A stretch of DNA of 45,309 nucleotides from an uncultured Oscillospiraceae bacterium (GTDB lineage Bacteria > Bacillota > Clostridia > Oscillospirales > Oscillospiraceae). Positions 1 through 45,309 of the stretch are shown one piece after another. Each line of letters opens with the position of its first letter. The first letter of the stretch is position 1. The notes beneath the pieces were generated by a model, which had not been told where the DNA came from, did not search any database, and saw only the letters and a list, made by a program, of their open reading frames with translations. The stretch lies in NCBI GenBank assembly GCA_947589745.1, contig CANQCS010000015.1, positions 1-45,309 on the forward strand, read 5' to 3'. A program made the translations under genes and the position numbers.

Positions 1-240
1 AAGGATAGATTTCCGTATACGACCCGACAAGAAACATCTGTCAATTGCGTAGTAGAACGGAGCAACCAGCAGTCGGAATACGGCAAAAAAAATAAGCCAG
101 CAGTACCGATGAATGCTTTCCCTGACTACTAGTTCAACCATCCAACTGCCCTTAACCGTTCTCCCCGGGGATTCTCAAGGGGCCCCAGCCCCTTGAGCAA
201 CTTTTTGGGTACTTTTTGTTTGCACAAAAAGTACCCCAGG
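1..240. repeat. Repeat A, locus 1 (truncated by window start)
   Basis: Right half of the dispersed composite element. It has the word TTGCGTAGTAGAACGGAGCA at 45-64, a near copy of the palindrome-bearing word ATTTCCGTATACGG at 9-22, and the outer-arm word CCGATGAATGCTTTCCC near 107. Two hairpins follow: CTCAAGGGGC/GCCCCTTGAG at 173-196 and GGGTAC...GTACCC at 207-236. A third GC-rich hairpin (GTAGGGGCC/GGCCCCTAC) lies just before the proC ribosome binding site. The order matches the right-hand part of locus 5. No coding sequence is seen in 1-323. Confidence 0.85.
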
Positions 241-323
241 GTGCTGGCAGGCACTAAAAATATTTATAAGAGGTGGTAGGGGCCGGAGGCCCCTACTGAT
301 CCGCATTTGAAAGGAGCCCCCCA

Positions 324-6376: not shown

Positions 6377-6466
6377 GCCGTCACCGGGCGGCCGCACTGG
6401 GAATGGCAGTATCCACGTAGCGAATGTAAAGTTCTTTTTGATTCTTTTTCTTTCAAGAAAAAGAAT
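6377..6466 (+). repeat. Repeat B, copy 1
   Basis: Diverged left part (CGTCACCGGGCGG...GTAGCGAATGTAAAG) aligns to the other copies. The conserved right part has AAAGTTCTTTTTGATTC and the hairpin CTTTTTCTTTCAAGAAAAAG extended by ATTC/GAAT pairs. It fills the gap between the DUF1624 stop and the ribosome binding site of the PPC gene. Confidence 0.8.
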
Positions 6467-6480
6467 GGAGGCGAAATAGT

Positions 6481-7799: not shown

Positions 7800-8122
7800 A
7801 CAAAAGCAGAGGGGGCGGAGCCCCCTCTGAGTCTTGGTAGGGACCTGCCGGTCCCTGCACCCCCCGGGTACTTTTCCCTCGCAGGAAAAGTACCCAAAAG
7901 TGCGCTTAAGGGGGCTCGCGCCCCCTTAAGAATCCCTGCTGTTTGGAAGAACGTTAAGGGCAGTTTTCCGGTGGGAAGTAGCCAGAGAAGGCTTTCATCG
8001 GGGGTGCCCTTTTGTTTTTCCGTTGTCGATGGTGCCGGTTGCTCCGTTCCACTACGCAATTAGTAGATTTCCGTATACGGCTTGGGACGGACTGCGTTCT
8101 GCTCCGTTCTGCTACGCAATTG
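7800..8122. repeat. Repeat A, locus 3 (single left arm)
   Basis: Cleanest single arm. GC-rich hairpin GAGGGGGC-GCCCCCTC at 7808-7828; hairpin GGGTAC...GTACCC at 7866-7895; hairpin CTTAAGGGGGC/GCCCCCTTAAG near 7903-7930; linker AACGTTAAGGGCAG; outer word GGCTTTCATCGGGGGTGCC near 7990; then forward core words at 8038-8060 and 8100-8122 flanking ATTTCCGTATACGG. The first hairpin, beside the DUF523 stop, could also terminate that operon. 8123-8198 holds only the weak hairpin TGCCCA/TGGGCA (8180-8197) after the next gene's stop. Confidence 0.85.
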
Positions 8123-8198
8123 GGGGCGCGGTGGTTGGCGGGCGTGATTGGGGGCTGGCAGACAAACTGGAATCGTAAATGCCCAATTTTATGGGCAA

Positions 8199-9185
8199 TT
8201 ATTTCTTCATGATCGTCTCTGAAAAGGTCACCCTGTATCCATCGCCCTCCGCCGGCGCGGTCAAAATCTGTTCCTCGCCGGAAATCTGGTAGCGGTATTC
8301 CGCCGGATGTATCAGAACATATTTGTATTCCCCGTCAGGAGGCATCTTGTCCCAGTAGTGATCGGAAATGGATATACTGGCAAAATGTGATGCGGGAAGT
8401 TCTCCGGAGAAAAAAGGAATTGCTTTTCGGTAGACCAACTCATCCTTTTTGCCGATCGTCCGATAAATTTGGTATTCCCATTGAAAATCATCTTCCAGAA
8501 CGAGAATATTCTCCGCGGTAGCATTGTAAAGAGAAATATCAACATCTAACTGATCTTCCAGTGCGAAAACTCCAAACATACAGGGCAGCTCCATATTGCC
8601 CGTACCCATCAGACTGCCATATTCGATAACTGCCCCGTCCCACTCCTCTTCGGAGGTAAAAGAAACTCCGGGACTGGAGACCGTCAACCCTGCGGCATTG
8701 TCAAATTCATAGTCCCAGCCGAATTCTTCTACCGCAAAACGCCAGGTCAGTGGGAAATAGGTGATATCACGAAATGACAGGATGGGGTAGGGTTCCTTGA
8801 CATTGTCGATCACCTTCCCATTGACTGCGATGGGGCCCTCCGTGATCTGGGCCCGCTGGGTCTTCGCGTTCCTGACAGTTTGGACCTCTCGAATATACTC
8901 GGAAAGATTGGCGCCGCTTTTCTCAATGGAAAGCCCGGTTTCCTTTGTCCATACCGTACGCAAGCCCAGCAGTTTGCAGTCATAGTAGGTCATAGGAAAG
9001 TAGGTGATATCCTGATAGACAAGAAACGGGTACCGGCTGTATTCGCTGGAAATCGTCTGTCCATTGAGGGTGATGGCATGGCCGGGCAGGGAGACTTGTA
9101 CCGTCCCCGCCGCATAAGCCGTTGAAACGGGGAGACTCCCCAGGAAAAGCGCTGTCAGCAGCAAGCTGATCCACATTTTTTTCAT
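8199..9185 (-). CDS. Exported stalk-domain (copper amine oxidase N-terminal-like) protein
   Basis: A 328-residue secreted protein. Residues 1-25 form a signal peptide (MKKMWISLLLTALFLG, ending TAYA-A). Two copies of the stalk/copper amine oxidase N-terminal-like repeat follow, each with a DITYFPMTYYD or DITYFPLTWRF core. The C-terminal part is a beta-rich region with no family I recognise. Such stalk domains are non-catalytic surface modules in Clostridia. The internal ATG at 9185 is chosen because AAAGGG lies 9 nt upstream; the earlier ATG at 9203 has no ribosome binding site. Its promoter shares an operator-like block with that of the deacetylase at 38384. Local GC content is lower than in neighbours. 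Confidence 0.82.
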   Translation of the reverse strand: MKKMWISLLLTALFLGSLPVSTAYAAGTVQVSLPGHAITLNGQTISSEYSRYPFLVYQDITYFPMTYYDCKLLGLRTVWTKETGLSIEKSGANLSEYIREVQTVRNAKTQRAQITEGPIAVNGKVIDNVKEPYPILSFRDITYFPLTWRFAVEEFGWDYEFDNAAGLTVSSPGVSFTSEEEWDGAVIEYGSLMGTGNMELPCMFGVFALEDQLDVDISLYNATAENILVLEDDFQWEYQIYRTIGKKDELVYRKAIPFFSGELPASHFASISISDHYWDKMPPDGEYKYVLIHPAEYRYQISGEEQILTAPAEGDGYRVTFSETIMKK

Positions 9186-9319
9186 AATAGCAGGCCCTTT
9201 CATCTTTTTTACCGCACAAAGCTTCCAAGATCATCGCAGCGAGTTTACCACGATCGCGCAAGGCTCGCAAATCAGTCCACCCAATGGCGAGACAGAGAAC
9301 AGGCGGTTTTATTGCATTC

Positions 9320-9348
9320 AATATAGCACATTGTTCTACAAATGTCAA
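9320..9348 (-). promoter_or_regulatory. Promoter with operator-like block for the stalk-domain gene
   Basis: On the minus strand TTGACA (9343-9348), 17 nt spacer, TATATT (9320-9325). Plus-strand bases 9330-9348 read ATTGTTCTACAAATGTCAA, which differs by one base from 39291-39309. The block covers the spacer and the -35 box, so a bound protein would block RNA polymerase. The transcript would have a leader of roughly 125 nt. Confidence 0.75.
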
Positions 9349-9356
9349 CCTTATTT

Positions 9357-9420
9357 GTGGTAGGGGCCGGAGGCCCCTTTGCATTGCACTCTGGGGCTTC
9401 CGCTCCCCCACTGTACATTT
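9357..9420. repeat. Isolated GC-rich hairpin module related to repeat A ends
   Basis: GTGGTAGGGGCCGGAGGCCCC followed by GCATTGCACTCTGGGG resembles the terminal segment of repeat A loci 1 and 5 (GTGGTAGGGGCC...CGCATTTGCACTGTGG at the window end). It lies between two divergent promoters and may insulate them. Confidence 0.55.
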
Positions 9421-20032: not shown

Positions 20033-20130
20033 AACCGTACACCGTTACCGTGCGGAAAACCAGGGATCGCAGCATCTTGGTAGCGATAGTAAAGTTCTTT
20101 TTGATCCTTTTTCTTTCAAGAAAAAGGATC
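20033..20130 (+). repeat. Repeat B, copy 3
   Basis: Full copy: AACCGTACACCGTTACCGTG, GCGGAAA, an ATCGC...GCGAT stem, AAAGTTCTTTTTGATCC, then the hairpin CTTTTTCTTTCAAGAAAAAG extended by GATCC/GGATC. It is inserted within the operon between priA and def and ends 1-2 nt into the priA stop codon. Confidence 0.85.
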
Positions 20131-22579
20131 AATCATCGGCGTTGCAGTCCACGAATAGATTCATGCCCCGGTTCTCCTTCTTCCGGTGGAAGGCCCGGAT
20201 GTAAAAGCTGATCACTTCACGGGCGCTGTGGTCGTTGCGTCCCACCCAGAACAGGCGGTAGCGGTAGCGGTTGTTGACCTTCACCACCGGCGCGGGCGCG
20301 GGGCCCACGATCTCCACCGCCCCCACATCGTCCCGGCCCCGGAGGCCGTCCCGCATGGCCTCCCGCAGCCCGGCGGCGGCGCGGAGCACCGCCCCCTCCT
20401 CCGGCCCGGACACGGTCATGGTGAAGATATCCGCAAAGGGCGGGTAGCGCCGGGCCCGGCGGATGCGGAGCTCGGCGGCGTAGAAGCTGTTGTAGTCCTG
20501 GGCCGCGGCGGCGGCGATGATCTCGTTGTCCGGGGTGAAGGTCTGGATCACCGCCCGGCCGTCCTTGCTCCCCCGGCCCGCCCGGCCCACCACCTGGGTC
20601 AGCAGGCTGAAGGTCCGCTCGGCGGCGTGGTAGTTGTCCACGTAGAGGCTCAGGTCCGCCGCCAGGACCCCCACCAGGGTCACATTGGGGAAATCCAGCC
20701 CCTTGGCCACCATCTGGGTGCCCAGGAGGATGGGGATGTTCTCCCGGCTGAACCGGTCCAGCAGGGCCTCGTGGTTGCCGGAGACGGTGTCCGCGTCCAT
20801 CCGCAGCACCCTGGCCCGGGGGAAGAGGGCGTTCAGCTCCTCCTCCACCCTCTGGGTCCCGGCGCCCACCTGCTTCATGAGCCCGCCGCACTGGGGGCAC
20901 GCCTGGGGCGCCCGCTCCGAGTGGCCGCAGTAGTGGCACATGAGCCGCCCGTTGGCGCTGTGGTAGGTCAGGGGCACGCTGCACCGGGGGCACTGGGGCA
21001 CGTCCCCGCACTCCCCGCACAGCAGCATCCGGCTGCTGCCCCGGCGGTTGAGGAACAGGATGCTCTGCTCCCCCCGGGCGATGTTGGCGGCCAGCTCCTC
21101 CCGGAGCGGCGCGCTGATCATGCCGGCGTTGCCGGCGCGGACCTCCTGCCGCATGTCCGCCACCACCACCCGGGGCAGGCTCTGGCGGTTGTAGCGGGAC
21201 CGGAGGATCAGCTTCTGGTAGACGCCCCGCTGGGCCTGCCAGGTGGTCTCGATGGAGGGCGTGGCGGAGCCCAGGACCAGGGCCGCCCCCTGCTGGGCGC
21301 AGAGGAACTTGGCCACGTCCCGGGCGTGGTAGCGGGGCGGGTTCTCGGACTGGTAGCTGCTCTCGTGCTCCTCGTCCAGGATGATCATGCCCAGGTCCTC
21401 CAGGGGCGCGAACACCGCGCTGCGGGTGCCCAGCACCACGTCCACCTGTCCCCGGCGGATGCGCTTCCACTGGTCGTAGCGCTCGCTCATGGAGAGGCCG
21501 CTGTGAAGCATGACTACTTTATCCCCGAAGTAGGCGCTGAATTTCGCCATCATCTGGGGGGTCAGGGCGATCTCGGGGACCAGGATCATCCCCCGCTTGC
21601 CCCGGCGGACCGTCTCCTGGAGGAGGCGGATATACACCAGGGTCTTCCCGCTGCCGGTAACGCCGTACAGCAGGGCGCAGGACGCCCCGCCCTCCCCGGC
21701 CCTGGCCAGGATGGCGTCGCAGGCGGCCTGCTGCTCCTCGCTGAGGACGATGGGCGCGCCGTCGGCGGGGGCGGGCCTGGGGACCCGGAAGACCTCCTCC
21801 CGGGAGAAGGCCACGAGGCCGCTCTTTTCCAGGCTCCGGAGCGTCTGGGCAGAGGCCCCGGTGAAATAGCAGATATCGCTGGAGAGGGCGCTGCCCACGG
21901 TGCTCAGCAGACGGATCACCTCATAGCGCATGGGGGCGCTGCGGCGCTTGGGCTCCACCGTGGCCATGGCCTCCTCGGCGCTGACGGCCAGGGTCACCCG
22001 GCGGGCCTGCTTGTCCGTCAAACGGCGGTCCGCCTCGGCGTCGATGGTGACGACGCCCCGGCGCCGGAGCTCCCGGGCCACCGCCGCCGCGCCCTCGCCG
22101 CAGGCCAGGCGCAGGGTCTCCAGCTCGCAGGACCCGCCGTGGGCGCAGAGGGCCTCCAGCACCCGGCTCTCCTTCTCATTGGCCCCGGCGGTGAGGGCGT
22201 CCTCCCGGCTGAGGGCCAGGGTGCAGACCTCCCGCACCCGGTACCACAGCCCGGCGGGCAGCAGCACCTTCACCGCGTCGTAGATGGTGCAGAAGTACCG
22301 CTCCCGGAGCCACAGGGCCAGCCTGATCTGGTCCGGCCCCAGGACGCTCTCGCTGTCCAGCACCCGGCCGATGGCCTTCAGCTCCGGCCGCTTGCTCCCC
22401 TGGGAGAGGGCCAGGATGACGCCCTCGCTGACCTTGTTGCCCCTTCCGAAGGGCACGGTCACCCGGACGCCCACCCTGGCCTTGTCCGCCAGGGCGGCGG
22501 GCACCAGGTAGTCGTAGGGCCTGTCGATGCTGTAGGTGGCGGCAGCCACCGCCACCCGGGCCACGCCCGCCAGCTCCAT
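20129..22579 (-). CDS. priA: Primosomal protein N' (replication restart helicase)
   Basis: 3'-to-5' DNA helicase that reloads the replisome at stalled forks. 816 residues: N-terminal 3'BD (VAAATYSIDRPYDYLVP), winged helix, Walker A GVTGSGKTLVYIRLL, DEEH box, GSATPSIET. The zinc-binding region between the helicase lobes has paired cysteines (CGECGDVPQCPRCSVPL and CHYCGHSERAPQACPQCGG). ILLGTQMVAKGLDFP is motif V. ATG 22579 is chosen; a GTG two codons upstream overlapping the rpoZ stop is also possible. Antisense frames here are GC-driven shadows. Confidence 0.96.
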   Translation of the reverse strand: MELAGVARVAVAAATYSIDRPYDYLVPAALADKARVGVRVTVPFGRGNKVSEGVILALSQGSKRPELKAIGRVLDSESVLGPDQIRLALWLRERYFCTIYDAVKVLLPAGLWYRVREVCTLALSREDALTAGANEKESRVLEALCAHGGSCELETLRLACGEGAAAVARELRRRGVVTIDAEADRRLTDKQARRVTLAVSAEEAMATVEPKRRSAPMRYEVIRLLSTVGSALSSDICYFTGASAQTLRSLEKSGLVAFSREEVFRVPRPAPADGAPIVLSEEQQAACDAILARAGEGGASCALLYGVTGSGKTLVYIRLLQETVRRGKRGMILVPEIALTPQMMAKFSAYFGDKVVMLHSGLSMSERYDQWKRIRRGQVDVVLGTRSAVFAPLEDLGMIILDEEHESSYQSENPPRYHARDVAKFLCAQQGAALVLGSATPSIETTWQAQRGVYQKLILRSRYNRQSLPRVVVADMRQEVRAGNAGMISAPLREELAANIARGEQSILFLNRRGSSRMLLCGECGDVPQCPRCSVPLTYHSANGRLMCHYCGHSERAPQACPQCGGLMKQVGAGTQRVEEELNALFPRARVLRMDADTVSGNHEALLDRFSRENIPILLGTQMVAKGLDFPNVTLVGVLAADLSLYVDNYHAAERTFSLLTQVVGRAGRGSKDGRAVIQTFTPDNEIIAAAAAQDYNSFYAAELRIRRARRYPPFADIFTMTVSGPEEGAVLRAAAGLREAMRDGLRGRDDVGAVEIVGPAPAPVVKVNNRYRYRLFWVGRNDHSAREVISFYIRAFHRKKENRGMNLFVDCNADD

Positions 22580-24654: not shown

Positions 24655-24757
24655 TGAAAAGCGCACTTCGTTACCGCGCGGAACATACAGGGATCGCAAC
24701 GCTTTGAGAGCGAAGATAAAGTTCTTTTTGGTACTTTTTCTTTCAAGAAAAAATATC
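24655..24757 (+). repeat. Repeat B, copy 4
   Basis: Copy with CGTTACCGCGCGGAA, GGGATCGCAACGCTTTGAGA, AAAGTTCTTTTTGGTAC and the hairpin CTTTTTCTTTCAAGAAAAA. The outer stem pairs are weaker than in other copies. It fills the gap between yicC and the J-domain gene and touches the latter's stop codon. Confidence 0.82.
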
Positions 24758-25403
24758 AACACCAGAAGATCCGCATTCCGCCGCAGCTGCACAGGTTGCA
24801 CATCAGGTACGCGCAGGCCATCCGCCCGCAGACGTTCCCCTCGCCGCAGCCGCTGGAGAACACCTCATAGCCCTCGGGCCGGTAGGCCCCCTGGCCGTTC
24901 TCCACGAAGTTCAGCATCTGCCGGTACTCCCCGTTGCCGGGGTCCATCTGGCAGGCGGTCTGGTAGTACCGCCGCGCCTCGTCCACCCAGCCCCGGCGGT
25001 AGCAGATGGTGCCCTTCAGGAAGTTCCACTCCCCGTCGTGGTCGGTGATCTGCCCCAGCAGCTGCTCCGCCGTGGCCAGGTCCCCCTGGTTGATGGCCAT
25101 GCGCACCCGCTGGAAGAGGGGGCTGCCGGCGCGCTGCTGGTACTGCTGCTGGTAGCCGCCGTAGTAGCTCTGCCGCTGCTGGGCCTGGGAGCCGTAGGTC
25201 GCGTTCCCCCGGCCGCCGCGCTGGCGCTGGATGGTGTCGTAGGCGGCGTTGATCTCCTTCATCTTCTCCTGGGCCAGGTCGGCCAGGGGGTTGTCGTGGT
25301 AGTTGTCCGGATGGTACTTCCGGGCCAGATCGCGGTACGCCTTCTTGACCTCCTCGTCGGTAGCGGTGGAGGGGATATTCAGCACTTCATAGGGATCGGT
25401 CAT
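24756..25403 (-). CDS. J-domain protein with cysteine-rich tail
   Basis: A 215-residue co-chaperone-like protein. An N-terminal J domain (about 1-65) has the essential HPD in DLARKYHPDNYHD. A Gln/Tyr/Gly-rich linker (QAQQRQSYYGGYQQQYQQ) follows. Then comes a TPR-like helical region with AINQGDLATAEQLLGQI and WVDEARRYYQTACQMDP, and a tail with eight cysteines (SSGCGEGNVCGRMACAYLMC-NLCSCGG). It likely recruits DnaK to a membrane or metal-bound partner (inference). The ATG overlaps the DUF5685 stop (ATGA). Last gene of the cdaA operon. Confidence 0.88.
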   Translation of the reverse strand: MTDPYEVLNIPSTATDEEVKKAYRDLARKYHPDNYHDNPLADLAQEKMKEINAAYDTIQRQRGGRGNATYGSQAQQRQSYYGGYQQQYQQRAGSPLFQRVRMAINQGDLATAEQLLGQITDHDGEWNFLKGTICYRRGWVDEARRYYQTACQMDPGNGEYRQMLNFVENGQGAYRPEGYEVFSSGCGEGNVCGRMACAYLMCNLCSCGGMRIFWC

Positions 25404-36662: not shown

Positions 36663-37711
36663 GACGGATGATGGGCTTTGAGCTGAAGAAGATCTTTCTG
36701 AACCGGACGGCCCTGGCGGCCATCGCGGCGGTGCTGGTGCTGAACGCGCTGTATGTGTCCGCGTCCTACCGGAGCCAGTACGCCTACGACGGCCAGGGCC
36801 AGGAGGGCCACGGCGGGGAGGCGGTGGAGATCGACAGGGCCGTCGCGGCGCGGTACGCCGGTCCCCTCACCGACGAGGCGGTCCGGCAGATGCTGGCAGA
36901 CTTCCCCGTCCCGGACCTGCACGGCATGAACCCCAGATACTACTATATTAACGCCATCCAGTCCGCCGTCTACACCTACTTCGTGGGCATGGACGGCCAG
37001 TGGAACGGCCTCACGGTCCAAGAGGTCTTCGGCGGGGAGGAGATCGCGGTGGGCTACAACAAGGGCTGGCTCACCGTCAGCGGGGACCTGCAGAAGGGGT
37101 ATGTGATCCTCTCCCTGCTGATCCTGGTGCTGACCGCGCCGGTGTTCTCCCGGGAGTACGGCGGCATGGACAGCCTCATCCTGTCCTCCCGCTATGGGCC
37201 CGACCGGTGCGCCGCCGCCAAGTGCGCCTCCGCGCTGGCCTCCGCGGCGGCGCTGGCCCTCGCCTTCGGGCTGGGGACCTTCCTGGCGGGGCTGGTCCTC
37301 TACGGCAAAGAGGGACTTGCTTCCAGTATACGGTTCTCCCCGGTGGAATATGAGGGCCTGCTGCCCTATGACATCACCTGCGGCAAGCTGATCGGGCGGC
37401 AGGTCCTGCTGGGGCTGACCTCCGCCCTGGCGGTGGCGGGGGTGACGCTGCTGGCCTCCGCCCTCTGCCGGGGGCAGATGGCGGCGCTGGCCGCCGCGGC
37501 CGCGGTGCATCTCCTGCCCCTGGCCATACCGGTGCCGGAGACCAACCCGCTGTACCGTGTGGCCGTGCTGGCGCCGGTGATGCAGGCCCAGGGCATTGCG
37601 GTGCTGGCCGTAGGGCCGGGGTATTGGGTCCTGGCGGCGGCCGCCGCCGGGGCCCTGGCGGGGGGAGGCAGCTCCCTGGCGGCAAAAATTTTTGGAGGGC
37701 GGTCAGCTTGA
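36659..37711 (+). CDS. ABC-2-type permease
   Basis: 350 residues. MGFELKKIFLNRTALAAIAAVLVLNALYV is the classic first helix of ABC-2 permeases. A large external loop of about 130 residues follows, then five hydrophobic helices from about residue 140. FSREYGGMDSLILSSRYGP is the usual cytosolic coupling-type segment. The exported substrate is unknown; the partners are the ATPase upstream and, by context, the two-component system. The last codons and the stop lie inside a perfect 12 bp inverted repeat. Confidence 0.88.
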   Translation: MRRMMGFELKKIFLNRTALAAIAAVLVLNALYVSASYRSQYAYDGQGQEGHGGEAVEIDRAVAARYAGPLTDEAVRQMLADFPVPDLHGMNPRYYYINAIQSAVYTYFVGMDGQWNGLTVQEVFGGEEIAVGYNKGWLTVSGDLQKGYVILSLLILVLTAPVFSREYGGMDSLILSSRYGPDRCAAAKCASALASAAALALAFGLGTFLAGLVLYGKEGLASSIRFSPVEYEGLLPYDITCGKLIGRQVLLGLTSALAVAGVTLLASALCRGQMAALAAAAAVHLLPLAIPVPETNPLYRVAVLAPVMQAQGIAVLAVGPGYWVLAAAAAGALAGGGSSLAAKIFGGRSA

Positions 37712-37720
37712 CCGCCCTCC
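37694..37720. other. Inverted repeat overlapping the permease stop codon
   Basis: GGAGGGCGGTCA/TGACCGCCCTCC with a 3 nt loop. The TGA stop lies in the second arm. There is no T tract after it on the plus strand, so termination is uncertain. Confidence 0.6.
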
Positions 37721-37734
37721 GCCGGTGGGGGTCT

Positions 37735-38360
37735 GGGGGCGCAGCCCCCCAGTGCAAACAAGTAGGGGCCTCCGGCCCCTACCACCTCTTTATCTTGTCG
37801 CAGCTTCGCCGCGCACCCTGGGTTACTTTTTGTGCAAACAAAAAGTAACCAAAAAATTGCCAGCCCTACGGGCTGGACCCCCTGTTAATTTTATTAAGAG
37901 AAAATGGTTCGTATGAAGTACCCAGAGAAGGCTTTCATCGGGGGTGCCCTCTGTTTTTCCGTAGTCCGACTGCTGGTTGCTCCGTTCCACTACGCAATTG
38001 ATGGATTTCCGTATACGGTTTGGGACTGACTGCGTACTGCTCCGTTCCACTACGCACAGGACAGATTTCCGTATACGGCCCGTTAAGAAACATTCATCAA
38101 TTGCGTAGTGGAACGGAGCAACCCGCACCATCGACAACGGAAAAACAAAACCGCAGTACCGATGAATGCTTTCTCTGTGTACTTCCTATGGAAACCTGCC
38201 TTTAACGTCCCTCCAAACGGCAGGGATTCTTAAGGGGGCGCGAGCCCCCTTAAGCGCACTTTTGGTGACTTTTCCTGCGAGGGAAAAGTCACCGGGGGAT
38301 GGCAGGCACCCCAGGGTGCCTACTAGCCCGGTGGGGGGCGGAGCCCCCCCACACCCCCGC
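37735..38360. repeat. Repeat A, locus 4 (most complete, two facing arms)
   Basis: GC-rich hairpin GTAGGGGCC/GGCCCCTAC at 37762-37782; hairpin GGTTAC...GTAACC at 37821-37850; hairpin CCAGCCC/GGGCTGG near 37859-37875; outer word GGCTTTCATCGGGGGTGCC near 37930; core words at 37975-38000, 38037-38060 (forward) and 38098-38122 (reverse); mirrored outer word CCGATGAATGCTTTC near 38158; hairpin TTAAGGGGGC/GCCCCCTTAA near 38229-38255; hairpin GGTGAC...GTCACC at 38264-38293; final GC-rich hairpin near 38331-38349. Bases 37914-38187 form one imperfect inverted repeat of about 270 bp. No gene is seen in 37712-38383. Confidence 0.87.
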
Positions 38361-38383
38361 GCAGCGGCGGCTCAACGCCGCCG

Positions 38384-39232
38384 CTAAAATTTTTTCAGCC
38401 GCTTTACCAGTGCTTCGCCGGTCCAGCTCTCACTGACGTTGTACCGTCCCATCATCCGCAGGCACATCGGTTTTCCGGTTTGCAGGCGGTTGCTGTGCTC
38501 TTCAATCGTGAAGGTGATCCGAATACCTTCCTCTGCCAGGACCTGGTCCGCCTCTTTATTGTAATAGCCAAAGGGATAGGCCAGGGCCGTCAGCGGCGTG
38601 GCCACACGTCCCTCCCGGCGCTCCCGGAAGAGCCGTGCGTCCTCCCGCAGCGCCGCCCGGTAGGCCTCGTCCGTCTCCCCCTCCAGAGGCAGGACGCCGT
38701 CCCGGCCGCTGTAGCCGTAGGAGGCCAGCTGGTGCAGATCGTAGGTGTGACTCTGGAGGTCCAGGACGCCCTTGGCCACCCACTCCGCCGCCTCCTCGTA
38801 GGAGAACCGGGGCGACGTAAAAGGCTCACCCGAGTGGACGTAGGTGTTCTCCCCCTCGTTGATGCCGATAACAAACACTGTGGCGCAGAAGCCCATCTCC
38901 TCCAGGATCGGCGCGGCGACCTTCAGGTTGCTGGTGTAGCCGTCGTCCATGGTGATCAGGACCGGCTTGTCCGGCAGGGGCGTCCCGTCGTCCACATAGT
39001 TCAAAATCTGTTGGAGAGTCACCGCCGTATAGCCCGCACTCCGCAGCGCGGCCATCTGCTCCCGGAACCGGTCCGCGGACACCACCGTCTCCTCGGAGGC
39101 CGCCGCGGCAAAGTGGTGGTACATCAGTACCGGCAGAGCTTTGCCGCTCCGCCGTACCGCCGCCGCGGTGCCGGACACCGCGGCCAAAAGCAGCAGTACG
39201 GCGCACAGCAGGCAGATGTTTCGTTTCTTCAT
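38384..39232 (-). CDS. Exported polysaccharide deacetylase family protein
   Basis: 282 residues with an N-terminal signal/anchor helix (NICLLCAVLLLLAAVSGTAAAV). NodB-type carbohydrate esterase 4 domain: LMYHHF, motif 1 LITMDDGYTSN (the TFDDG equivalent with catalytic Asp), motif 2 LQSHTYDLHQL (HxxxH zinc site), and LAYPFGYYN as motif 3. It probably deacetylates peptidoglycan or another surface glycan. ATG 39232 is chosen because the transcription start predicted from the promoter lies after the earlier in-frame ATG at 39280, and this start gives a clean signal peptide; GGAGG lies 12 nt upstream. Confidence 0.9.
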   Translation of the reverse strand: MKKRNICLLCAVLLLLAAVSGTAAAVRRSGKALPVLMYHHFAAAASEETVVSADRFREQMAALRSAGYTAVTLQQILNYVDDGTPLPDKPVLITMDDGYTSNLKVAAPILEEMGFCATVFVIGINEGENTYVHSGEPFTSPRFSYEEAAEWVAKGVLDLQSHTYDLHQLASYGYSGRDGVLPLEGETDEAYRAALREDARLFRERREGRVATPLTALAYPFGYYNKEADQVLAEEGIRITFTIEEHSNRLQTGKPMCLRMMGRYNVSESWTGEALVKRLKKF

Positions 39233-39280
39233 ACGCGCATGGCACCTCCCCGGGAAACAGACGCGGGCTTCCTTTTCCAT

Positions 39281-40033: not shown

Positions 40034-40140
40034 CTTCATACTTTTTCTTGAAAGAAAAAGTATCAAAAAGAACTTTATCCTCGCTTCCAAAGCGCTGCGA
40101 TACCTGCGTTTCCGCACGGTAACGATAGATGGTTCTAATG
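40034..40140 (-). repeat. Repeat B, copy 5
   Basis: Full copy on the minus strand: AACCATCTATCGTTACCGTG, ATCGCAGCGCTTTGGAAGCG, AAAGTTCTTTTTGATAC, hairpin CTTTTTCTTTCAAGAAAAAG with ATAC/GTAT extension. It ends next to the ribosome binding site of the DUF4250 gene. Nothing else is seen in 40026-40171. Confidence 0.85.
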
Positions 40141-40171
40141 GACGGATCGGATCAGGCGGAACCCGGGCGGC

Positions 40172-41738: not shown

Positions 41739-41750
41739 AGTGTTTCCTCC

Positions 41751-41829
41751 TTATACGCCCAGCTTTGCCGCGACGAAGTCGTCCAGCGCTGCCAGAGCGT
41801 TGTCCAGCTTCATCACATCATTTCCGCCG
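41751..41829 (-). pseudogene. Second alaS 3' tail
   Basis: Reads in frame as the last 24 or so codons of alaS including a stop (peptide NDVMKLDNALAALDDFVAAKLGV). Compared with the intact gene end at 41965-42040 there are eight base changes in codons, all synonymous, plus TAA in place of TGA. It has no start codon of its own and lies 135 bp beyond the alaS stop. Confidence 0.9.
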
Positions 41830-41964
41830 TTCCCCACGCGGCTCCGCCGCGCGGGGACCCCTTTGATTTCAAATGCTCGGGCGGAGTGAATCCGCCCTCC
41901 GCCAATTCCCCGCTTTGCTCCGAATTGACGCGCAAGCGCGGCTCGCTTTCGCTCGCTGGGCGGC
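41830..41964. mobile_element. 135 bp stem-loop-rich insert between two alaS tails
   Basis: Consecutive stems: CCCC-CGCGGC/GCCGCG-GGGG (41832-41856), GGGCGGA/TCCGCCC (41879-41897), CAATTC/GAATTG (41903-41927) and CGCGC/GCGCG (41929-41940). The direct repeat GCTCGCT...GCTCGCT (41941-41957) follows. No coding frame. It is flanked by the two alaS tails as direct repeats. Its class (small mobile unit or recombination scar) is inference. Confidence 0.6.
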
Positions 41965-44634
<2,670 letters not shown>

Positions 44635-44683: not shown

Positions 44684-45309
44684 GGTGGTAGGGGGCTCCG
44701 CCCCCACCGGGTCTGATGCGCACCCCCGATGGTTGCGCCCCTGGGGTACTTTTCCCGTGCCGGAAAAGTACCCAAAAGGGCATTTAAGAAAACCAAGGTT
44801 TTCTTAAAAATCTTTCCTCATTTTTTGTTTTTGTTTTGCGCTCCACCTTTGGCTGGTTTGGTCTAAACTGTTCTTGCTCCCGTGTATGGGGCGCTGCGGC
44901 TGTTTCAGTAAGTTCCCAAGAACAGTGAAGCGCTGGTGCAGGGGCTCATTGGGTGCGTTGGTCGTTTTTTACGTTGTCCTACTGCGTCCTGCTCCGTTCC
45001 ACTACGCACAGGACAGATTTCCGTATACGGACTCGACAAGAACCGCGCCATCAATTGCGTAGTGGAACGGAGCAACCAGCAGTAAGACTACGGAAAAACA
45101 AAGCCGCACCCCCGATGAATGCTTTCCCTGACTTCTAGTTTCACCATCCATCTGCCCTTAACAAAAATTAGTCAGAGGTCCAGCCCTACGGGCTGGCGCC
45201 CTTTTGGGTACTTTTCCCGCGTGGGAAAAGTACCCCAGGGTGCTGGCAAGCACTGAAAATAGAATAAGAGGTGGTAGGGGCCGGAGGCCCCTACGCATTT
45301 GCACTGTGG
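44684..45309. repeat. Repeat A, locus 5 (runs to window end)
   Basis: GC-rich hairpin GGTAGGGGGC/GCCCCCACC near 44686-44708; hairpin GGGGTAC...GTACCC at 44744-44773; hairpin TTTAAGAAAACC/GGTTTTCTTAAA near 44783-44809. Then 44868-44980, the module also found inverted at 2050-2160. Core words at 44990-45014 (forward) and 45053-45077 (reverse) flank ATTTCCGTATACGG. After them come outer word CCGATGAATGCTTTCCC near 45113, hairpin CCAGCCC/GGGCTGG, hairpin GGGTAC...GTACCC at 45206-45235, and the terminal GTAGGGGCC hairpin. No gene is seen in 44635-45309. Confidence 0.87.

Follow-up and report, generated by a model that had tools for sequence, protein, structure and literature searches.

What kind of element is the composite intergenic repeat at positions 7800-8122? 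The window, by which we mean the whole 45,309-nt stretch of DNA that was analyzed, is the entire contig C15 of the host genome (G000), a draft assembly of 4.05 Mb in 252 contigs that is 98.83% complete. A sequence-only reading of the window had described five copies of one repeat, built from modules in a fixed order. The five loci and their modules are indeed present, and the core word occurs exactly 11 times on the two strands, as had been counted, against 0.17 matches expected (≤3 mismatches). The word ATTTCCGTATACGG has six matches in the window (≤2 mismatches) against 0.05 expected.

The number of copies had been set far too low. Genome-wide, the core word has 421 matches in G000 (200 forward and 221 reverse; ≤2 mismatches) and its reversed control has none; we estimate that the genome holds two hundred element copies. 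Neither of the two outcomes named beforehand as refuting, copies restricted to the window or an alignment that shows decayed pieces of one ordinary transposon, was seen. Arms and cargo were studied in 805 kb of the genome (20%), made up of contigs rich in listed core matches, and in further loci. These 805 kb contain about one third of the cores (148 matches with ≤3 mismatches, against the genome-wide 421 with ≤2). Because they were picked from core-rich contigs, densities in them are not genome averages and the figure of two hundred elements is an estimate.

Architecture and placement of the elements

The general plan is two inverted arms, a short kind (A) and a long kind (B), flanking inverted cores. 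An A arm begins on the outside with a GC-rich hairpin and a second hairpin that varies; inward of these come the TACTTTT hairpin (H2), a third hairpin (H3), usually of the TTAAGGGG or CCAGCCC kind, and the words GTTAAGGGCAG and CTTTCATCGG. A B arm has the same outer hairpins, an H3 of the TTAAGAAAACC type and the long inner words CCCGTGTATGGGGC and GGTGCGTTGGTCG. The usual order is A arm, plus-oriented core, 65 nt, minus-oriented core; some elements have a third core 60 nt further on, mostly on the B side. The modules of the proposed fixed order are real, but their layout is that of two inverted arms, and GTTAAGGGCAG and CTTTCATCGG, which had been placed in a single series with the rest, both belong to A arms. 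We typed 80 clusters, of which 68 come from the 805 kb and 12 from loci that a cargo-side word had singled out. Sixty are A..B or B..A, three A..A and three B..B; the other 14 are incomplete, untyped or lone chance core matches (three of the 14).

The elements of the window and their parts are as follows:

1-295, minus strand: right half-element, one core (47-64, minus) and an A arm, cut by the contig end
1655-2341, plus strand: complete A..B element with three cores (1893-1910 plus, 1958-1975 minus, 2018-2035 minus)
7800-8122, plus strand: focal copy, a left A arm with two cores (8040-8057 plus, 8100-8117 plus)
7869-7892, no strand: TACTTTT hairpin (H2) of the focal copy
8199-9203, minus strand: probable cargo gene, 334 aa, GC 0.4975, no Pfam or PADLOC match
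9357-9408, minus strand: probable remnant, the outer end of a second A arm; inner arm and core missing
37735-38360, no strand: complete A..A element with cores at 37978-37995 (plus), 38038-38055 (plus) and 38103-38120 (minus); its centre folds as a long hairpin
44684-45309, minus strand: B..A element at the contig end with cores at 44990-45007 (plus) and 45057-45074 (minus)
Other H2 hairpins of the window: 210-233, 1721-1744, 2257-2280, 37824-37847, 38267-38290, 44747-44770, 45209-45232

Two loci proved to be smaller parts than first described. The one at 1-240, taken before as a full copy, is half an element at the contig end, and 7800-8122, taken as a whole composite element, is a left A arm, whose two cores are direct. 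To its right, positions 9357-9408 include a 22-nt exact hairpin match common to many arm ends and match the outermost part of the A arm at C2:34577 (87% over 54 nt). The focal copy is probably the left end of a cargo-bearing element that carries the gene at 8199-9203, and we infer that 7800-9408 is one cargo-bearing A..A element that has lost its right inner arm and core. Because the window is a whole contig, the loci at 1-240 and 44684-45309 abut contig ends; together with the large number of contigs, this suggests that the elements may be one cause of assembly breaks.

Two other repeats were seen in the window. A second family, around CTTTTTCTTTCAAGAAAAAG (72-108 nt; 6398-6469, 20061-20132, 24688-24759 and 40035-40142), has a hairpin and no cores. 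An 80-nt direct repeat (41750-41829 and 41964-42043) is 90% identical, with starts 214 nt apart.

For 37932-38170, the centre of the complete A..A element, the fold obtained is a long DNA hairpin (-74.8 kcal/mol, z -12.9). H2 stems covary: in 52 selected hairpins the score is 0.360 against 0.114 when shuffled, and none of 500 shuffles reaches it. In this set, which comes from G000 and other genomes, 94.1% of cells pair, a percentage inflated by the choice of 52 out of 95 candidates for common register and high pairing. The suggestion of a structured RNA found no support: no Rfam family reaches its gathering score anywhere in the window and only weak sub-threshold matches were seen, the best in 37700-38400 with 22.9 bits against 52.

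In all 74 A arms, H3 is followed outward by a run of at least four T (at least five in 44). For B arms, H3 was recognised in 61 out of 69; 60 of these 61 have an outward run of at least four T, and only two have a run of five. In the 12 nt beside H3, the mean number of T is 5.68 outward versus 2.51 inward in A arms, and 4.70 outward versus 5.64 inward in B arms. Because T-runs and T-richness point outward in A arms and B arms are not richer in T on their outward side, outward termination of transcription is plausible at A arms only; at B arms it is weakly supported. Two candidates for the outer boundary of the elements were discarded. The strict form of the shared word TAGATGNTTCT has no match away from cores and looser forms give no consistent end, and a further hairpin module beside five elements was judged to be an extra module instead.

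Elements sit flush between genes. According to the crude ORF caller on which our gene neighbours and in-gene counts rest, the neighbours of 49 elements are 29 tandem, 16 convergent and 4 divergent, compared with 207 tandem, 91 convergent and 81 divergent among all 379 gaps of at least 60 nt, so that divergent gaps are under-used. The caller placed 42 of the 148 core matches inside 26 ORFs. On inspection, three are longer ORFs with lone core matches (≤3 mismatches) and no arms, one has an over-long upstream start, and the other 22 (83-236 aa) lie within or nearly within elements. No armed element inside a gene was seen among the 26 core-bearing ORFs inspected, in line with the earlier statement that copies never lie within genes.

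Central inserts and their genes

The 805 kb contain 59 elements with cores in both orientations, the nine of the 68 clusters that lack both being left out of the count. For 52 of them the inner gap is 60-70 nt, and seven have larger inserts, with core gaps of 251-1686 nt. With 52 of 59 elements empty, most copies persist without cargo. Five of the seven larger inserts contain ORFs of about 100 aa or longer, which were taken as genes (for the inserts at C3:96995 and C7:71793 the coding call rests on ORFs without a Pfam match), and two have no evident gene. About one in ten examined elements has AT-rich, foreign-looking genes at its centre.

Because an insert is defined here as a gap between cores, this count alone cannot show where inserts go. 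The insert site was tested by the distance from core to H2 in 121 typed arms (six untyped arms were left out). This distance is 124-153 nt in 63 A arms and 207-248 nt in 52 B arms, so 115 arms have H2 at the usual distance, and none of the 121 has a displaced H2. The remaining six B arms have no H2 within 2.5 kb; four lie at stretch or contig ends and two are truncated, one of the latter adjoining a presumed serine recombinase gene. Arms are several times longer than the centre. Since no arm has a displaced H2, inserts sit at the centre of the elements and not in the arms.

We compared 14 inserts, drawn from the 805-kb set, the loci singled out with a cargo-side word, the B..B element at C7:86213-87274, the one-core element at C11:4726 and the focal copy. 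Selection by that word favours elements with cargo; without such selection, seven of 59 elements hold inserts. Eleven are flanked by cores at both ends. At their ends the inserts share inverted sequences, about 20-50 nt long, that comprise the core and in many cases GATGGTTCTTGTCGG; otherwise they mostly differ. The GC content of the 12 coding inserts, with their noncoding parts included, is 0.42-0.55, against a mean of 0.649 (sd 0.044) for 533 called host genes. All 12 fall in the lowest 2.6% of host genes by GC, and their low GC makes them look foreign. The two noncoding inserts have GC values of 0.58-0.60.

A Pfam scan of 14 cargo proteins identified four GNAT acetyltransferases, four XRE-type regulators, one DUF6809 protein, and one methyltransferase next to a DUF6199 protein; three proteins had no match. 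No transposase was found among these 14 proteins, some short insert ORFs being outside the scan. One of the GNAT proteins scores 194.8 bits with the NCBIfam model AAC_6p_group_E (aminoglycoside 6'-N-acetyltransferase; cut-off 140), and such sites can thus carry resistance-type genes.

A noncoding repeat of about 60-200 nt was also seen to recur within several inserts, alone or beside cargo genes:

L139 917-1110, L141 493-743 and L204 1448-1700 (L204 by eye): noncoding insert repeat
G000 C7:28938-29243 and C11:42071-42340: noncoding insert repeat

Distribution and turnover among genomes

Among 59 relatives, the core word matched three genomes: G019 (13 + 8 matches, with a variant core ending in CTCCGCA), G021 (one) and G038 (one). 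A B-arm word was found in 6 out of 200 family genomes, including G000, G012 and G009; the other three have single three-mismatch matches. Judged by these matches, the B-arm word, like the core word, is almost confined to the genus of G000. Outer hairpins matched in many congeners, where some are paired a few hundred nt apart with differing interiors. In one congener (G009, locus L122 on C17, 600-830), TACTTTT and TCAAG-type hairpins lie immediately upstream of a gene that we take to be dnaA. Viral contigs searched with the exact core word gave no match, nor did phages and plasmids searched with one element, collections from which its own or near-own records may be absent. Full-text literature searches, in a collection that leaves out most subscription papers, gave no description of these elements. 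Within the searches made, the earlier view of an unusual repeat family therefore holds.

A near-identical element occurs in the MAG uncultured Clostridia bacterium Lapin-001 bin44 (G259; CANPZU010000014.1, locus L152). It is the only element that the core search found in that genome and is perhaps a transferred copy. Together with a hint in the sequence-only reading, this MAG points to a gut clostridium as the probable host of the window. The L152 element adjoins a sporulation-sigma-like reading frame that stops early. Positions 1-600 of L152 and 1115-2950 of a host locus (L069 on C5) are 88.6% identical over 590 nt. At both loci, a presumed serine recombinase gene stops immediately short of a B arm, and this arm is truncated at its TTCTTGAGAATC hairpin. 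We rejected this enzyme as the one that mobilises the elements, because the arm is cut there, as by insertion into the arm.

The congener G019, which we call related to G000, has the same architecture with a diverged core. Seven of its 19 element loci have flanking ORFs that match the 20% of G000 that was read. In this small sample, five of the seven adjoin a G000 element (L176, L182, L183, L185 and L190), L175 is separated from the nearest by 12-30 kb, and the matches of L184 are all weak and lie away from the element. Three loci (L182, L183 and L190) align with G000 on both sides as far as the element itself, with 76-94% nucleotide identity, and the element of L183 is flipped with respect to its flanks. 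The alignment of L185 covers one side, its neighbour on the other side being a different one; at L176 the alignment is limited by the end of the G000 stretch. Independent insertion at favoured sites is a possible source of such shared positions. Of eight mapped hairpin loci of other congeners, one is less than 700 nt away from a G000 core and a second is 725 nt away.

The arms carry no ortholog signal: ortholog arms (identity 0.72-0.81) are no closer than random between-species pairs (0.78-0.80), and arms within a species are at 0.82-0.85. For B arms, the identity is 0.852 within G000, 0.821 within G019, 0.782 between them and 0.72-0.80 for ortholog pairs. For A arms, where the comparison rests on three G019 arms, the single ortholog pair has 0.806 versus 0.804 between species. 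In 47 A/B elements, A-arm and B-arm distances show little or no correlation (r -0.04 to 0.13, the top value being about 2 sd above permutations and below their maximum). Inner and outer parts of A arms are also uncorrelated (0.014); parts of B arms are correlated (0.25-0.33). The arms are thus mosaic, and these 47 elements indicate that modules reassort.

One cassette occupies different element sites in the two species. In G000, the methyltransferase gene lies in a B..B element with cores at C2:108000-109704. L185, the G019 element that shares its left neighbour, is empty, with cores 65 nt apart; only one flank maps between these two loci. G019 has the methyltransferase at L192 (89% aa identity; 87.2% nt identity over 829 nt), with arms and no recognisable cores, between genes that we take to be miaB and mutS. 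At the corresponding miaB-mutS-like site of G000 (L203) there is an empty A..B element, and both flanks are orthologous (85.7% and 82.4% nt identity). The simplest reading of these comparisons, which rests on one cassette, is relocation between element sites, in which case the cassette would have moved. It is possible that presence at both sites followed by reciprocal loss, or two separate captures, produced the same picture. A relative of the methyltransferase in G035 (76% aa identity) has no arms. An acetyltransferase homolog in G017 (74% aa identity, GC 0.465), considered as a second case of relocation, is armless as well; it fits capture and shows no exchange.

Proposed origin and known systems

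We lean slightly towards the explanation that gene cassettes dock at the elements, which would be dispersed palindromic sites reshuffled by recombination. Arms with stem-loops flank inverted cores able to fold into a hairpin, and foreign genes, some with their own control regions, would occupy the hairpin tip between the cores. The homologous copies, some two hundred by our estimate, would recombine with one another, and this recombination would move cassettes between sites, swap or flip arms and keep the copies of one species alike. New DNA may be captured at the hairpin tip, where the palindrome could break and be repaired or a recombinase could act at the cores. The stem-loops would stop outward-reading transcription, chiefly at A arms. 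Of this picture, the anatomy, the central position and AT-richness of the inserts, the cassette at different element sites in two related species and the mosaic arms are read directly from sequence, whereas movement of the cassette, capture at the tip and the transcription stop are inferred. Double-strand breaks and rearrangements through hairpins or cruciforms concentrate at palindromes (PMC4245961), and it is therefore reasonable to propose capture at the hairpin tip; a dedicated recombinase acting at the core would explain entry equally well. No recombinase or capture enzyme was identified with the Y1_Tnp and integron-integrase models searched in G000, which counts against the docking-site reading.

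The elements might instead be non-autonomous transposons (MITEs and mobile insertion cassettes) with cargo inside, their arm ends or cores being recognised by a transposase acting in trans. High core copy number in G000 and, of the 59 relatives, many copies only in G019 would suit this explanation, as would inverted ends with passenger genes. Likewise, none of 22 congener orthologs of the gene at 38384-39280 has an element-type H2 in the 731-900 nt downstream (there is one other hairpin). We nevertheless find it rather unlikely, given outer ends that are not sharp, cargo proteins without a transposase match, the absence of Y1 transposase, arms of one element that vary independently or nearly so, and sites shared with G019 in five out of seven cases. 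Moreover, 51 elements show no target-duplication signal (mean longest shared word 4.55 versus 4.48 shuffled), with one 9-nt match of this type among them; because element boundaries are imprecise, a weak signal could be missed. The sequence-only proposal of a non-autonomous mobile element thus survives in part: arms turn over, and the two species have one cassette in different places. The missing target-duplication signal, the mosaic arms and the shared sites nevertheless speak against transposition of whole elements, which leaves homologous elements exchanging with one another and new DNA entering at their centre.

Intergenic positions flush with genes, few of them between divergent genes, outward T-runs and covarying stems would also fit BIME-like intergenic terminator arrays, where foreign genes land as tolerated intergenic insertions. 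That the inserts share inverted ends and are central (7/59), with none between core and H2 (0/121 displaced) even though the arms are longer, makes this improbable to us. We give still less credence, and in fact very little, to a site-specific system of the dif-module type in which Xer recombinases act at the core words. Genes between inverted short sites would resemble Acinetobacter dif modules (PMC6449649), and one element (L204) adjoins a gene that is presumably XerD-like. A single XerD gene next to one of about 200 elements could be there by chance, however, and the best dif match in 37735-38360, the one element tested, has 12 mismatches in 28 positions and is no better than that in the rest of the window (10).

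If the docking-site reading is true, little-studied gut clostridia have a route, other than plasmids, phages and integrons, by which accessory genes are acquired and reshuffled. Concerted evolution of dispersed noncoding repeats in a bacterium would also become testable.

Several known systems share features with these elements. BIME, REP and REPIN sequences are high-copy intergenic palindromes in alternating orientation (PMC2817692). Our elements are high-copy intergenic palindromes too, but they are about 620 nt long, comprise several modules and carry genes; the Y1 (RAYT) transposase family PF01797 has no match in the G000 draft and is found in 5 of 14 control genomes. Mobile insertion cassettes have inverted ends and no transposase of their own. 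Passenger genes within a mobile cassette have been described (PMC3913671). Like these cassettes and gene-carrying MITEs, the elements have passenger genes without a transposase between inverted ends; unlike them, they have no overall target duplications, two kinds of complex hairpin arms that are mosaic, an estimated 200 dispersed copies and sites mostly in common with one congener. In the dif modules of Acinetobacter the sites are inverted. There, adaptive genes are flanked on both sides by a short recombination site (pdif/dif; PMC6449649). The elements also have genes with a short site on both flanks, but they are chromosomal, hold one insert each, have a core that is not dif-like and place hairpin arms around the sites.

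The likeness to integrons lies in small, foreign-looking genes (acetyltransferases, a methyltransferase, XRE regulators), interchangeable units and hairpin-forming sites. In integrons, small cassette genes come in interchangeable units with hairpin-forming sites. Unlike integrons, the elements form no array and, in those read, have one insert between cores that are inverted, not direct; the integron-integrase model TIGR02249 gave 14 matches in G000, the best with 78.7 bits and none over the cut-off of 265. Tentatively, and as a picture that may well need revision, we suggest that hundreds of dispersed palindromic sites per chromosome capture foreign genes at their hairpin tips and exchange these genes through homologous recombination or breakage of the hairpin, with no array and perhaps no dedicated integrase, much like a superintegron spread over the whole genome.
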